From assembly GCA_012026835.1 (NCBI GenBank), contig VEPN01000005.1, positions 1 to 64,000 on the forward strand: a stretch of DNA of 64,000 nt. Reading direction: 5' to 3'. The notes beneath the pieces are model-generated. The model searched no databases. It was given only the letters and a program-made list of their open reading frames with translations, and had not been told where the DNA came from. Position 1 is the stretch's first letter. Each line of letters opens with the position of its first letter. This DNA is from Candidatus Methanoperedens sp. GTDB taxonomy: Archaea; Halobacteriota; Methanosarcinia; Methanosarcinales; Methanoperedenaceae. Position numbers and translations under genes: made by a program. Positions 3,891 through 35,449 of the stretch are shown here, in pieces.

Positions 3891-5264
3891 ATGGAATCCA
3901 TCACTTTTTTTAGTAATAAAAAAGATCACAGACAGGCGGCAGAAGATATAATCCAGCAGGCGCACAAGCGCCTGGATTTTGAGCCAAACCTTGCCCTCTT
4001 TTACGCCACGTTAAAATATAATGGAAAATACCAGGCTATGCTTGATATGTTTAATGAGGAGTACGGGAATATTCCTCAGATTGGTGCTTCAGTGGACGGC
4101 ATGATTTATCCGGATGACATGAGAACGGACGGGGCAGCCCTTGTGCTATGCAGGGACGAAGATGCAAAGATACGGGTGGACGGGGTAAAAGAAAAAGGAG
4201 CAATTAATTCTGCAGAAAAGCTTGCAAAAAAGATAAAGTGTGAAAACGGTGCAGTTGTACTTCATTTTCCTTTGATGTATGTACCTGATGCCCTCAAATG
4301 TACTGAATCATTCGCAAAAGGATTGTATTACAGTAAAAGATGCAAGGGAGCGGATAAAGAAAAACAGAAAGGATATGCAGAGAAATTAGCTGACTATTGC
4401 GACAGGGAAAATATATTCTACCTTCCGCCGACTATCCTGAATATATTTGCAAAACAAACAAGCTACAAAGTCCCGATAATAGGGATTAACGTAATGCATA
4501 CCCAGGTCAGGTTCAATTCCCCCCGCATATTCTGTAATTTCAAAGATATTGATGGCGGCATTGCAGCTCTGACAATAGAGAAAAAGGGTGTGGGCGCTGT
4601 TTATGATGATATCTTCCCGGATAAGGGAAAAACCCTTGAGGAAACAAAGCGCATAGTGAACAGGGAATTCACTGTTATCAAGGAATTTAATGCGAATTTT
4701 GAGAAGAATATACTTGTCTCTCTGGATAATATGCCGCCATTAGAGGCTGTGAAGAACTTAATATACACATCTGAAAATAAAAATGACGACCTTCTAAAGC
4801 ATCTTGATAAAGGTGCATATAAACTATACAGGCCATATGTGCTTCTATTTTTTAATAAAAAAACAAATGGTGCTTTTGTTCTTGGAATAGGATCATATTA
4901 TCCATTTGATTTATTTCCTTTTTTTGTAGATATTTCAGATTATTCAGAAGATGTGGCCCTTGCATACGCATTGGTAGATGGTAAATTCAATGCATTTACT
5001 TCAAGTTTAGATAATCTTAGAAGTAGTAATGGAAAGTTTGTTTGTTTTTTCATTGATGTAGGTGTGGCATCAGCATTTGGAGAAAAAATTTTTGAATACA
5101 AGGATAAAACAAAAAAATTAGCAGGGAAAAATTATTTTGGGATTTTGTCAGCAACACCCTCAGCTTATATACCGCCTGAATTCCAGCTAAGGAATTACTT
5201 ATCCGAGTCATCGAATAATACATTTTTTATGACCGGCGGGACAAACGCTTGCCTGGAAATTTAA
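3891..5264 (+). CDS. FIST-domain sensor-like protein
   Basis: A 457-residue soluble protein that resembles FIST N and C domain proteins, which are small-ligand sensory modules. The first 250 residues carry the N-domain pattern (ALFYATLKYNG, then IPQIGASVDGMIYPD near residues 60-75), and the C domain follows with LYRPYVLLFFNKK and GILSATPSAYIPPEFQL near the end. A GGAGG at 3883-3887 supports the ATG at 3891. The 3' third (about 4790-5160) is more AT-rich than the 5' part. It follows the KaiC-like/roadblock pair on the same strand after about 100 bases and may be their input. It converges with the next gene with a 4-base overlap of stop codons. Confidence 0.7.
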   Translation: MESITFFSNKKDHRQAAEDIIQQAHKRLDFEPNLALFYATLKYNGKYQAMLDMFNEEYGNIPQIGASVDGMIYPDDMRTDGAALVLCRDEDAKIRVDGVKEKGAINSAEKLAKKIKCENGAVVLHFPLMYVPDALKCTESFAKGLYYSKRCKGADKEKQKGYAEKLADYCDRENIFYLPPTILNIFAKQTSYKVPIIGINVMHTQVRFNSPRIFCNFKDIDGGIAALTIEKKGVGAVYDDIFPDKGKTLEETKRIVNREFTVIKEFNANFEKNILVSLDNMPPLEAVKNLIYTSENKNDDLLKHLDKGAYKLYRPYVLLFFNKKTNGAFVLGIGSYYPFDLFPFFVDISDYSEDVALAYALVDGKFNAFTSSLDNLRSSNGKFVCFFIDVGVASAFGEKIFEYKDKTKKLAGKNYFGILSATPSAYIPPEFQLRNYLSESSNNTFFMTGGTNACLEI

Positions 5265-32725: not shown

Positions 32726-33039
32726 TCAGGTTAACACAGACATCAAATCGCCATAAAATGCGGCCATAAAAAACCCCACGGTTATGGGAATCATAAACGG
32801 CAGGCCCGGTGTAACCCAGATTTCATCTTTAATTAAGCTTTTTTCCGACAGGGCTTTAAGCTCCCTGATTTTTTTCTCATTAATATCTACACCGCCCCAT
32901 TTAAAACGGGATTTAACCCTGCTATCTACCACTTCAAAATCCTGTACCGACCGGATATGTTTACCTGCGAGTTTTGAAATGCGACGATTGTCAGCAGGGC
33001 TGCGTTGCCTAATATGCTAAGGGCAAAAATATCATACAT
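32726..33039 (-). pseudogene. Decayed A24 prepilin/preflagellin peptidase
   Basis: Two fragments in different frames belong to one archaeal A24 peptidase (FlaK/EppA type). The 5' fragment (33039 to a TAG at 32926-32928) reads FALSILGNAALLTIVAFQN, a transmembrane helix. The 3' fragment (from about 32932) ends with EIWVTPGLPFMIPITVGFF, the typical last helix of FlaK-like enzymes. The frame changes near 32930. The first half of the protein and the catalytic GxGD aspartate region are missing. Such an enzyme would process archaellin or pilin signal peptides. No related pilin gene is nearby. Confidence 0.65.
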
Positions 33040-33043
33040 AGAA

Positions 33044-33463
33044 CTATTTTAACTGGGGAGCGATTTCTTTCGCTTTTTCAAGTATCATTTTTCCTCTGTC
33101 AGTTGTTAAGTATTTGTCCTGCCTGTTCTCCACAAATCCATTTTTCATGAGTAAAACAAGATATTTTTCTGCGACCGTGAAGTTCAGATTCGCTCCATAG
33201 ACAATACCTGTTTTATTTACTTCCTTTTTCGCAATTTCAAGAATATCGATAATAATATCAAGCTTTCCGCGCATATTTACCCCTGTATTTTCCGATACAT
33301 GCCTTAAGATCCTTTTTTCAGGAACTCTATATGCCCACCTGTCAGAACCATTTATATACAATACGTTCTCATGCTGCCTGCTTTCGATAAAGAGAACAGC
33401 TCCTTCCAGCATCTCACCTGATTTCAGTTTGAATTTTACAGTATCTCCTGAAGAATATTTCAT
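33044..33463 (-). CDS. Winged-helix protein with N-terminal SH3-like domain
   Basis: A 139-residue protein. The first 60 residues form small beta strands (SGDTVKFKLKSGEMLEGAVL), resembling an Sm/SH3-like barrel. From about residue 66 there is an archaeal winged helix (KLDIIIDILEIAKKEVNKTG, then FTVAEKYLVLLMKNGFVE and YLTTDRGKMILEKA), the HTH_45-like domain seen in archaeal regulators. It is likely a DNA-binding regulator. Its stop lies four bases before the decayed A24 gene on the same strand. The regulated target is unknown. Confidence 0.7.
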   Translation of the reverse strand: MKYSSGDTVKFKLKSGEMLEGAVLFIESRQHENVLYINGSDRWAYRVPEKRILRHVSENTGVNMRGKLDIIIDILEIAKKEVNKTGIVYGANLNFTVAEKYLVLLMKNGFVENRQDKYLTTDRGKMILEKAKEIAPQLK

Positions 33464-33620
33464 ATCAACAATGCAGGAATGCTTTTATTCCTTTAGTATT
33501 TTTCATTTTGTTTCTCCATTCTATTTCTGGTGATGCCGACCGGTATTGCCTCTTTTATATCATCATTTTCCAATTCGAAGCATGGCGGATACGGATTTAT
33601 AGCATCACCAGCATATACTA

Positions 33621-33684
33621 ATTTCATAAACTATTTTAGGATAATCACCATAAACTATATAGAGTTATATAGTCTATTTTTATC
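33621..33684 (+). repeat. AT-rich direct repeat, copy A
   Basis: One of three imperfect copies of a roughly 55-60 base element: AAACTATTTTA, about 11-13 bases, then TAAACTATATAGAG and TTATATAGT. The copies are spaced 289 and 215 bases apart and each lies before a GC-richer, hairpin-forming stretch. The AT-rich composition suits a promoter or operator. Confidence 0.7.
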
Positions 33685-33760
33685 CTGAAAAATACAGGCT
33701 CTCCGCCTGAAAAAATAGAAAAAATAGAACTATATAGAAACTGTCCGTTTTTTATATTAC

Positions 33761-33890
33761 ATGGAACCGGCGCCCTGTTGTGCGACCGGGAGCGCCGTTC
33801 CATGGATAATGAAGCCCGGTACTAAGCAGAAATAGGATGTTATTTTGTGGGCTTCGTACTCCCCTTACTGTGGGCAGGTTTGGCGGTATT
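33761..33890 (+). ncRNA. Candidate structured RNA unit 1
   Basis: A GC-rich island in AT-rich DNA. It opens with a long stem: ATGGAAC at 33761-33767 pairs with GTTCCAT at 33797-33803, with inner CGGCGC/GCGCCG pairing. A second stem follows: GAAGCCC (33811-33817) with GGGCTTC (33849-33855). Unit 2 has the same second stem, with shared GCTAAG/CTAAG and CAGAAA inside and TACTC after it. Reading frames through the two units are not conserved, so RNA rather than a peptide is favoured. The strand is not proven; the ends are approximate. Confidence 0.45.
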
Positions 33891-33914
33891 TAACCACCAC
33901 ATTACTTTAATCCC

Positions 33915-33973
33915 ACAAACTATTTTATTGTAATCATAGTAAACTATAGAGAATTATATAGTTTTTTTGTTCC
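33915..33973 (+). repeat. AT-rich direct repeat, copy B
   Basis: Second copy of the element: AAACTATTTTA at 33917, then TAAACTATAGAGAATTATA and TAGT, followed by a T-run. It lies between candidate RNA units 1 and 2 and would be the promoter region of unit 2 if units are transcribed on the plus strand. Confidence 0.7.
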
Positions 33974-33979
33974 CGGCGA

Positions 33980-34120
33980 ATGGCGCTTCTGACGGACATT
34001 GGGTGGCACTGTTACAGGATTAATGAAGCCCTGCTAAGGCAGAAAAGGGGAAGCAAATTGAGGGCTTCATACTCATGTGAAATGTTGTGTTGAGCGGCCC
34101 GGTTTGTGCCGCCGGGTTAT
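33980..34120 (+). ncRNA. Candidate structured RNA unit 2
   Basis: Homologous in layout to unit 1. The shared stem is GAAGCCC (34025-34031) with GGGCTTC (34062-34068), preceded by GGATTAAT (GGATAAT in unit 1) and followed by ATACTC. A further stem GCGGC (34094-34098) with GCCGC (34108-34112) lies near its 3' end, then TTATTTTGG. Apart from the stem and flanks the sequence differs from unit 1, which suggests that structure rather than sequence is conserved. Ends are approximate and transcription is unproven. Confidence 0.45.
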
Positions 34121-34127
34121 TTTGGTT

Positions 34128-34190
34128 TCATAAACTATTTTAAGATACTCTTCATAAACTATAGAGAATATATAGTCGATTCTTATAGCT
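34128..34190 (+). repeat. AT-rich direct repeat, copy C
   Basis: Third copy: AAACTATTTTA at 34132, then TAAACTATAGAGAATATATA and GTCGATTC. It is followed not by a third hairpin unit but by about 80 bases leading to the stop of the PhoU-AbrB gene on the other strand. Confidence 0.7.
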
Positions 34191-34272
34191 ATGCAATAGA
34201 TAAAAATTTGCATTAAAAGCTTTCTCTGTGCCCGGAAAATAGTATTGGGTTCTTTTGTATATAATATATAAT

Positions 34273-35268
34273 CTATATACTTTTAGAGAAGTCAATGGCC
34301 AGCTCGGCGATATTTGCGGCATAATCCCCTATTCTTTTCACGCTGTCTGCCATGAGCCCTATGGACATGACTGCATCGGGATTCAGGGTCGTTCCCGGAC
34401 GCCTGGTTCTGCGCAGTTCCTCGCCTGTTTTTTTATGTTCTTCGATAACCTTGTTTGCAAGCTCTACATTGCATTTTGTAAATGAATTGACCGAGTCATT
34501 AACAAGCATATGAGAGATGGTGCATATTCTCACCATCTCATCGAGAATATCATGTGGGATCTTTTCATGTGATTCCAGCATTATGCCCGCAATCTTGCCC
34601 GCATGGTCAGATACGCGCTCTAACCGGTCGCTTGCCAGCCTGTAGTAGAAGGCACCTGTCAATCCCAGTTCACTCTTTTCGGATATCTTTGAATGGAGCA
34701 GTATATCCATGAACTGTTTTGAAATCAATAGATGGAGACGGTCTATATCATCGTCCTGCCGTATGATCTCTCCAGAAAGGGAAATATCTCCCGTCTTCAT
34801 CGCCCTGATAGTGTTGTCAAGCATCCACTGCGTTTTAATATGCATGCGCCGGAAGCTCACGTCTATAGGCATATCTCCCGGGTTCAGGATATCCTGGATA
34901 ACTATCTTCTCTTGTGTTTCTTCTATAATCTCAATACCTATCAATTTCTTGACTACGGATGTTATGTCTTTTCTCTGCTCTGGTGTTATATTTTTGGCTT
35001 TAAGTTCGGTTAAACGATACCCTGCAACGTATGTGGCTATTATATCCCTTATAAGCGGCTCGCCCGCTCTTCCATCTATGTTCATACCTTTTTGACACTG
35101 GGGTGCAGAACCGCCGTTTGAAGTTAAGAGAAGAGTACCGTCCTCCTGTGGATACATGTGGATAAGGGAACCTGAGGTTATCCCTGCATTGATAGCCCAC
35201 TTCTTGGGAAGAGATACAACAAACGTTGATTTACCTGTCACCTGGACTTTTCTTATTTCTGCGTTCAA
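34273..35268 (-). CDS. PhoU-like regulator with N-terminal AbrB domain
   Basis: A 331-residue fusion. Residues 1-45 form an AbrB/SpoVT-type swapped-hairpin DNA-binding domain (RKVQVTGKSTFVVSLPKKWA). Two PhoU helical repeats follow (about residues 110-330), with conserved DDDIDRL and RLERVSDHAGKI, the metal-binding pattern of PhoU. Related archaeal proteins regulate phosphate uptake. No pst transporter gene is in the window. The AbrB domain suggests direct DNA binding; the AT-rich promoter region resembles the repeats downstream (see findings). Confidence 0.85.
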   Translation of the reverse strand: MNAEIRKVQVTGKSTFVVSLPKKWAINAGITSGSLIHMYPQEDGTLLLTSNGGSAPQCQKGMNIDGRAGEPLIRDIIATYVAGYRLTELKAKNITPEQRKDITSVVKKLIGIEIIEETQEKIVIQDILNPGDMPIDVSFRRMHIKTQWMLDNTIRAMKTGDISLSGEIIRQDDDIDRLHLLISKQFMDILLHSKISEKSELGLTGAFYYRLASDRLERVSDHAGKIAGIMLESHEKIPHDILDEMVRICTISHMLVNDSVNSFTKCNVELANKVIEEHKKTGEELRRTRRPGTTLNPDAVMSIGLMADSVKRIGDYAANIAELAIDFSKSI

Positions 35269-35449
35269 TATGAGTTTTCAGGATAGTTGATAATATATAT
35301 TTTTTCCCAAGACTCTATATATTCTATATAAAATCAGTATTACACGTCGCTTGAATATAATGAAAACAATGTTTTGAGGCTTTAACAACAGCACTTTGAT
35401 TCTGGGCACTCAGATAGGTTAAAATATCTTCCATCCAGAATATACATTA

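Follow-up and report, generated by a model that had tools for sequence, protein, structure and literature searches.

Candidate Tandem Array of Sibling Noncoding RNA Genes at a Phosphate-Related Locus of Candidatus Methanoperedens

INTRODUCTION

The 64,000-nucleotide stretch of Candidatus Methanoperedens DNA that was analyzed in full (the window) contains, between the genes for an HTH_45 winged-helix protein and a PhoU-domain protein, a series of AT-rich repeats and hairpins (Table 1). What do these elements do? The first-pass annotation of this DNA had proposed either a duplicated small RNA locus or a duplicated mobile structured element; it contained no link to phosphate, no PstS remnant, and no second type of hairpin unit. 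This DNA corresponds to contig 64 in a genome of 3.3 Mb, whose nearest named relatives include Candidatus Methanoperedens BLZ2, STD1_19, and nzgw23, among others. Our analysis of these genomes leads us to propose, with moderate confidence, that the region contains tandem sibling noncoding RNA genes (two here and one to four in relatives) under the control of a Pho-type promoter element.

RESULTS AND DISCUSSION

Repeats and Hairpin Units

The three imperfect AT-rich copies reported earlier were recovered as a 74-nt repeat, R, with identities to the first copy of 100, 74, and 65% for R1, R2, and R3, respectively. An alignment of 23 R copies defines a 69-nt R with 20 invariant columns, and the symmetric dyad CTATA-N5-8-TATAG is present in each R.

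The two hairpin units that were described as having a common GAAGCCC/GGGCTTC stem, flanks, and loop words are also found in the sequence, with the stem following each of the first two copies of R. Using a covariance model built from hp1 and hp2, unit A scored 84.5 bits at 33759-33865 and unit B scored 59.7 bits at 33962-34078. When both units were folded, as had been suggested, unit A folded well on both strands (z-scores relative to shuffles of -3.2 on the plus strand and -3.8 on the minus strand), whereas unit B folds weakly or no better than shuffles (-0.4 and -1.2) because its hp1 is degenerate.

A type I unit is composed of hp1 (GAAACCGGYGCCC...GGGCRCCGTTTC) and hp2 (ATGAAGCCC...GGGCTTCAT, whose loop is rich in A), followed by a pyrimidine-rich stretch and then by hp3, which lies directly against the next R. 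The type II unit has a similar hp2 and an hp1 unlike that of type I (CAGGCTTTC/GAAAGCCTG). Type II units are followed by a conserved stretch of about 60 nt, with the inverted AT element AATAGGACTATATAG, which resembles a promoter pointing back into the array. Between R1 and unit A, both a type II unit and the inverted AT element survive as remnants.

An additional GAAGCCC...GGGCTTC hairpin at about 4165-4220 of locus L023 (G005:C95:45665-45719) points away from the gene for a second PstS paralogue, and a separate dyad lies between the two; this hairpin was missed by the covariance model. A GAAGCCC...GGGCTTC match in G006 was rejected as a unit, since it falls inside a coding sequence. A pseudoknot or kissing interaction involving GGAG of the hp1 loop, the hp2 loop, and CUCC of the tail was also rejected, the pairs within a unit being no better than those with other units or shuffles.

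Table 1. Features of the Window and Related Loci
Feature	Coordinates	Strand	Basis or remark
HTH_45 winged-helix protein gene, left neighbor	33044..33463	-	
First 13 codons and stop of lost pstS-like gene, MKNTKGIKAFLHC*	33465..33506	-	relatives' loci
Leader hairpin GGTGATGC...GCATCACC of lost pstS-like gene	33529..33609	-	relatives' loci
R1, AT-rich candidate promoter/operator repeat	33606..33684	.	left arm AAACTATTTTA; dyad CTATATAGAGTTATATAG at 33655-33672, with variants in other R copies
Remnants of type II unit (CAGGCTCTCCGCC) and inverted AT element (ACTATATAG)	about 33691..33745	.	comparison with relatives
Unit A, type I	33759..33899	.	fold, covariance model, alignment
Unit A hairpins	hp1 33760-33804; hp2 33811-33855; hp3 about 33881-33899		
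R2, second repeat	33895..33973	.	dyad 33944-33961
Unit B, type I	33962..34112	.	covariance model, alignment
Unit B hairpins	hp2 34025-34068; hp3 about 34093-34112		hp1 degenerate
R3, third repeat	34110..34187	.	dyad 34159-34175; nothing unit-like on right
PhoU-domain protein gene, right neighbor, candidate regulator	34273..35268	-	weak AbrB/MazE-like N-terminal match
Type II units	L021 6047-6207; L023 6282-6420; L024 6538-6740; L027 6227-6427		
PstS-like proteins with type IV pilin-like N-terminus	L021 4519-5637; L021 7222-8157; L023 2869-3993		
Dyad sites upstream of alkaline phosphatase, pstS, and polyphosphate kinase genes	G000:C39:26944 (L125 3945); G000:C53:5211 (L126 3712); G005 contig C95		

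Distribution among Relatives

A search with the repeat-and-hairpin region itself matched ten further genomes within the genus, with a best E value of 8e-26 and with two to four tandem hits in several of them. The covariance-model search that had been suggested at the outset located units in 9 of the 34 genomes of the family, all within one genus. The same nine were recovered from the 186 genomes of the order, together with one weak match (G171, 31 bits) that was treated as chance. The nine Candidatus Methanoperedens genomes carry syntenic arrays of one to four units, and the covariance model detected no second unit locus in any array-bearing genome. The aligned loci suggest an ancestral plan in which R and a type I unit occur together one to three times, often followed by R, a type II unit, and the inverted AT element.

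The array and the PhoU orthologue are patchy between close sisters: G000 has the array and G011 does not, and G005 and G008 also differ. The part of the window that G011 matches ends at 35408, immediately ahead of a DsrE gene, and other genes lie beyond. The array-bearers are scattered among non-bearers in a tree built from a single marker (HMG-CoA reductase), and this was counted against the array reading. The proteins of array-bearing genomes are 77-84% (PhoU) and 73-79% (HMG-CoA reductase) identical to those of the window. Since these values are close, old inheritance with repeated loss would fit better than recent transfer, as judged from this one marker.

A tandem-duplicated mobile structured element could account for the variable copy number and the patchy distribution. 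However, no copy was found elsewhere in the genomes searched, no R was found in the viral contigs searched, and the Pho neighborhood is constant. Because only this kind of locus has copies in the genomes searched, this part of the original proposal is unsupported, and we consider a mobile element to be highly improbable.

Conserved Structure and Coding Potential

In an alignment of 15 units, the structure pairs 87.7% of the cells, compared with 34-48% when it is slid along the alignment. Changes on both sides of a pair were found in 14 cells versus 6.2 in shuffles, and none of 500 shuffles reached that value. Of the eight double-change pairs, hp1 accounts for seven, altering its sequence yet keeping its pairing; the hp2 stem is near-invariant and is thus uninformative on covariation. 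The conserved pairing of hp1 is backed by compensatory changes. The loops and linkers contain words that are common between genomes. No match to Rfam was found for the region at the gathering threshold or at E ≤ 5, and the region contains no tRNA genes or tandem-repeat arrays.

GU pairs are not clearly more common than AC mismatches in the stems of the units. This counts against an RNA, in which, if it is read from a single strand, GU pairs should be tolerated. The retention of Watson-Crick pairs with no preference for GU, together with the conserved sequence of the hp2 arms and the clustering of several dyads beside the PhoU gene, would suit a DNA-level decoy in which the repeated operators titrate a phosphate regulator and the hairpins act as cruciforms or barriers with no functional RNA. 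A decoy, however, would not need the pairing that hp1 has kept through sequence change or the loop and linker words found in different genomes, and we regard it as improbable.

No conserved reading frame was found on either strand across the units. Reading from ATGAAGCCC on either strand gives frames of unequal length and register that encode different residues, and the gap lengths in the unit alignment are not multiples of three. On the minus strand, a stop follows the third codon in one unit, and the start is missing from two. Many units do have an ATG and a Shine-Dalgarno-like stretch on this strand, as would be expected for decayed small coding genes or leader peptides beginning at ATGAAGCCC, but these differences make such an origin very unlikely. 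The units are predicted not to encode protein, in agreement with the earlier argument that a peptide explanation fails.

The Dyad as a Candidate Pho Box

On other contigs of the window's genome, the dyad is found 116 nt upstream of an alkaline phosphatase gene and 60 nt upstream of pstS. Dyad sites in G005 precede two PstS-like genes, an HTH_45 gene, pstS, PPK2, and the PPK1 cluster. The pattern CTATA-N5-8-TATAG occurs at 15-27 sites in each of four genomes, fewer than the reversed control pattern. At least 2 of the 20 non-array dyads in the window's genome are at Pho promoters (p of about 4e-5 if there are taken to be 10 Pho promoters of 150 nt). With the array sites left out, the dyads on the Pho contig number 8 of 26 for G005 (p = 1.7e-8), 3 of at least 12 for G015 (p = 4e-4), and 2 of 13 for G020 (p = 0.016). 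In the window's genome, a stricter form of the dyad pattern, with mismatches, was not in excess of its control, and most of the dyads inspected there outside the loci named above are away from Pho genes. This last observation counts against the assignment and leaves the candidate Pho box probable, not proven. From its position and enrichment, CTATA-N5-8-TATAG is probably the Pho box of Methanoperedens.

The whole-R model gave strong matches at arrays only, and a weaker match (E value of 2e-4) adjoining a pstS-like gene of G019. Since dyads also precede Pho genes, the dyad is common to the array and the Pho genes, and the full R is specific to the array. The array is thus predicted to carry the same operator as the pst and phosphatase genes, with a different strength of the full motif.

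Gene Neighborhood

The gene to the left of the array in relatives is usually PstS-like with a pilin-like N-terminus, and genes for alkaline phosphatase, PstSCAB, PPK1, PPK2, Ppx/GppA, and PhoU are found near the arrays. The pstS-like gene is intact in several relatives and has been deleted from the window. Its leader hairpin of about 80 nt is conserved in L021, L022, and L024-L027, and this leader could be regulatory. Pilus-type ATPase and TadC-like genes lie near the pilin-like PstS genes in L021 and L023, and a 68-residue remnant of the C-terminal part of an archaeal prepilin peptidase lies beside the HTH_45 gene (window 32726-33463). The window holds one rearranged piece of a larger phosphate/type IV pilus locus.

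Of the 34 genomes, 13 encode a protein orthologous to the window's PhoU at over 75% identity: all nine array-bearers and 4 of the 25 others (Fisher p = 1.4e-5, uncorrected for relatedness). This orthologue is on the contig of the array in seven of the nine, and the array contigs of G026 and G028 end soon after the array. Three of the four PhoU-containing genomes with no detected array have contigs that end close by; in G013 and G022, the contig runs out about 220 nt or less from PhoU, on the side where an array would lie.

Direction of Transcription

The duplicated arrangement of promoter and structured RNA that was first proposed is well supported, but the assumed plus-strand direction is not, because the dyad of R is symmetric and, on the minus strand, R1 also faces the pstS-like gene or its remnant. 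The anatomy of the array points slightly to the minus strand. Right-end copies of R persist even though no unit comes after them (window, L022, L026, and L028). In L028, the PstS-like gene is gone together with the left half of R1. The hp3-R junction is rigid, with a minus-strand end that resembles the start of the PstS leader. Favoring the plus strand, hp1 starts about 27-32 nt past the dyad center (measured by hand for three units) and the AAACTATATAG arm faces hp1. A first count of GU/AC asymmetry in hp2 favored the plus strand, and this signal disappeared after trimming and a shuffle control. Fold z-scores were mixed, and a Pho-promoter matrix gave no difference between the strands. We give the minus strand slightly better than even odds and the plus strand slightly less; either is plausible. 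Predicted transcript starts, each about 27 nt away from an arm resembling a TATA box, would fall near 33685-33696, about 33760, and 33974-33985 on the plus strand or near 33607, about 33895, and about 34111 on the minus strand, and the predicted RNAs would be 130-170 nt long.

A minus-strand direction also allows for tandem leader or attenuator modules, with each R transcribing leftward through the unit on its left. R1 would serve the pstS-like gene, and the hairpins would be duplicated 5'-UTR elements that act in cis rather than trans-acting RNAs. R1 is indeed just upstream of the pstS-like gene, the leader hairpin begins at that border of R, right-end copies of R are kept without a following unit, and many units have a purine-rich GGAGG-like stretch before ATGAAGCCC on the minus strand. 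However, the arrays persist despite loss of the pstS-like gene (window and L028), complete promoter elements separate the units, and the frames after ATGAAGCCC are not conserved. We consider leader modules unlikely, though the most credible of the alternatives.

Proposed Function of the Array

The array consists of several related units in tandem, each with its own copy of the predicted promoter. The original suggestion of a duplicated small RNA locus is largely supported by the syntenic arrays, the covariation of hp1, the lack of coding conservation, and the dyad common to the Pho genes. The decayed hp1 of unit B and the loss of the pstS-like gene from the window were counted against the array. 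Each unit lies beside its own copy of R, a candidate promoter/operator of about 70 bp carrying the Pho-type dyad. In the mechanism that we consider most likely, all of the copies, along with the transporter genes, would be controlled by a regulator that senses phosphate, for which the adjacent PhoU-domain protein is a plausible candidate. The unit RNAs would act post-transcriptionally on phosphate-related mRNAs, with those for Pst, phosphatase, or polyphosphate kinase as the predicted targets. Array copy number would set the dose, and the divergent hairpins would set the range of targets. The transcription of the array, its control by phosphate, its regulator, and its action on targets are what we infer from these patterns. 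More tentatively, the array may represent a new RNA family, an archaeal phosphate-controlled sibling array that was amplified from the divergent Pho promoter of a phosphate-binding protein gene and is possibly read on both strands.

Comparison with Known Systems

The closest layout is that of NsiR1 from Nostoc sp. PCC 7120, an RNA of about 60 nt with 12 copies, for which nitrogen/heterocyst control by HetR was shown experimentally (PMC9045159). Its tandem, partly divergent copies lie upstream of a regulated gene and have their own promoters with a stress-regulon motif (PMC9045159), a plan that is predicted for the array as well. The Methanoperedens array differs in being archaeal, with three hairpins per unit, one to four copies, a Pho-type motif, and predicted transcription; the likeness is one of layout, and no homology is claimed. 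In Haloferax volcanii, sRNA132 is a single-copy, Haloferax-restricted RNA characterized by deletion and Northern blot, and it was not reported to be adjacent to its target operon (PMC6560208). Like the candidate RNAs of the array, it is encoded between genes in an archaeon and is linked to phosphate starvation and to Pst transporters (PMC6560208), a likeness of physiology by description for which no homology is claimed. The pairs OmrA/OmrB, PrrF1/PrrF2, and AbcR1/AbcR2 are also adjacent related RNAs with common and divergent parts, but they are bacterial and respond to other stimuli (PMC4211561). The text of this review of tandem sibling sRNAs makes no mention of archaea (PMC4211561). According to work cited in PMC6560208, Halobacterium salinarum has PhoU-type regulators and pho-boxes before phosphate transporter genes; the dyad, which is inferred from position and enrichment, is likened to these by description only. 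No paper describing a Methanoperedens small RNA with a known stimulus was found in the literature searched.

CONCLUSIONS

A stimulus is known for few archaeal small RNAs. The array described here would link an RNA family that is not listed in Rfam to a concrete stimulus and operator, and it would be the archaeal equivalent of NsiR1 and similar tandem sibling arrays. The dyad provides a candidate Pho box for this anaerobic methane-oxidizing lineage. If the array does represent a new family, its copy number would tune phosphate-starvation regulation in anaerobic methane oxidizers.
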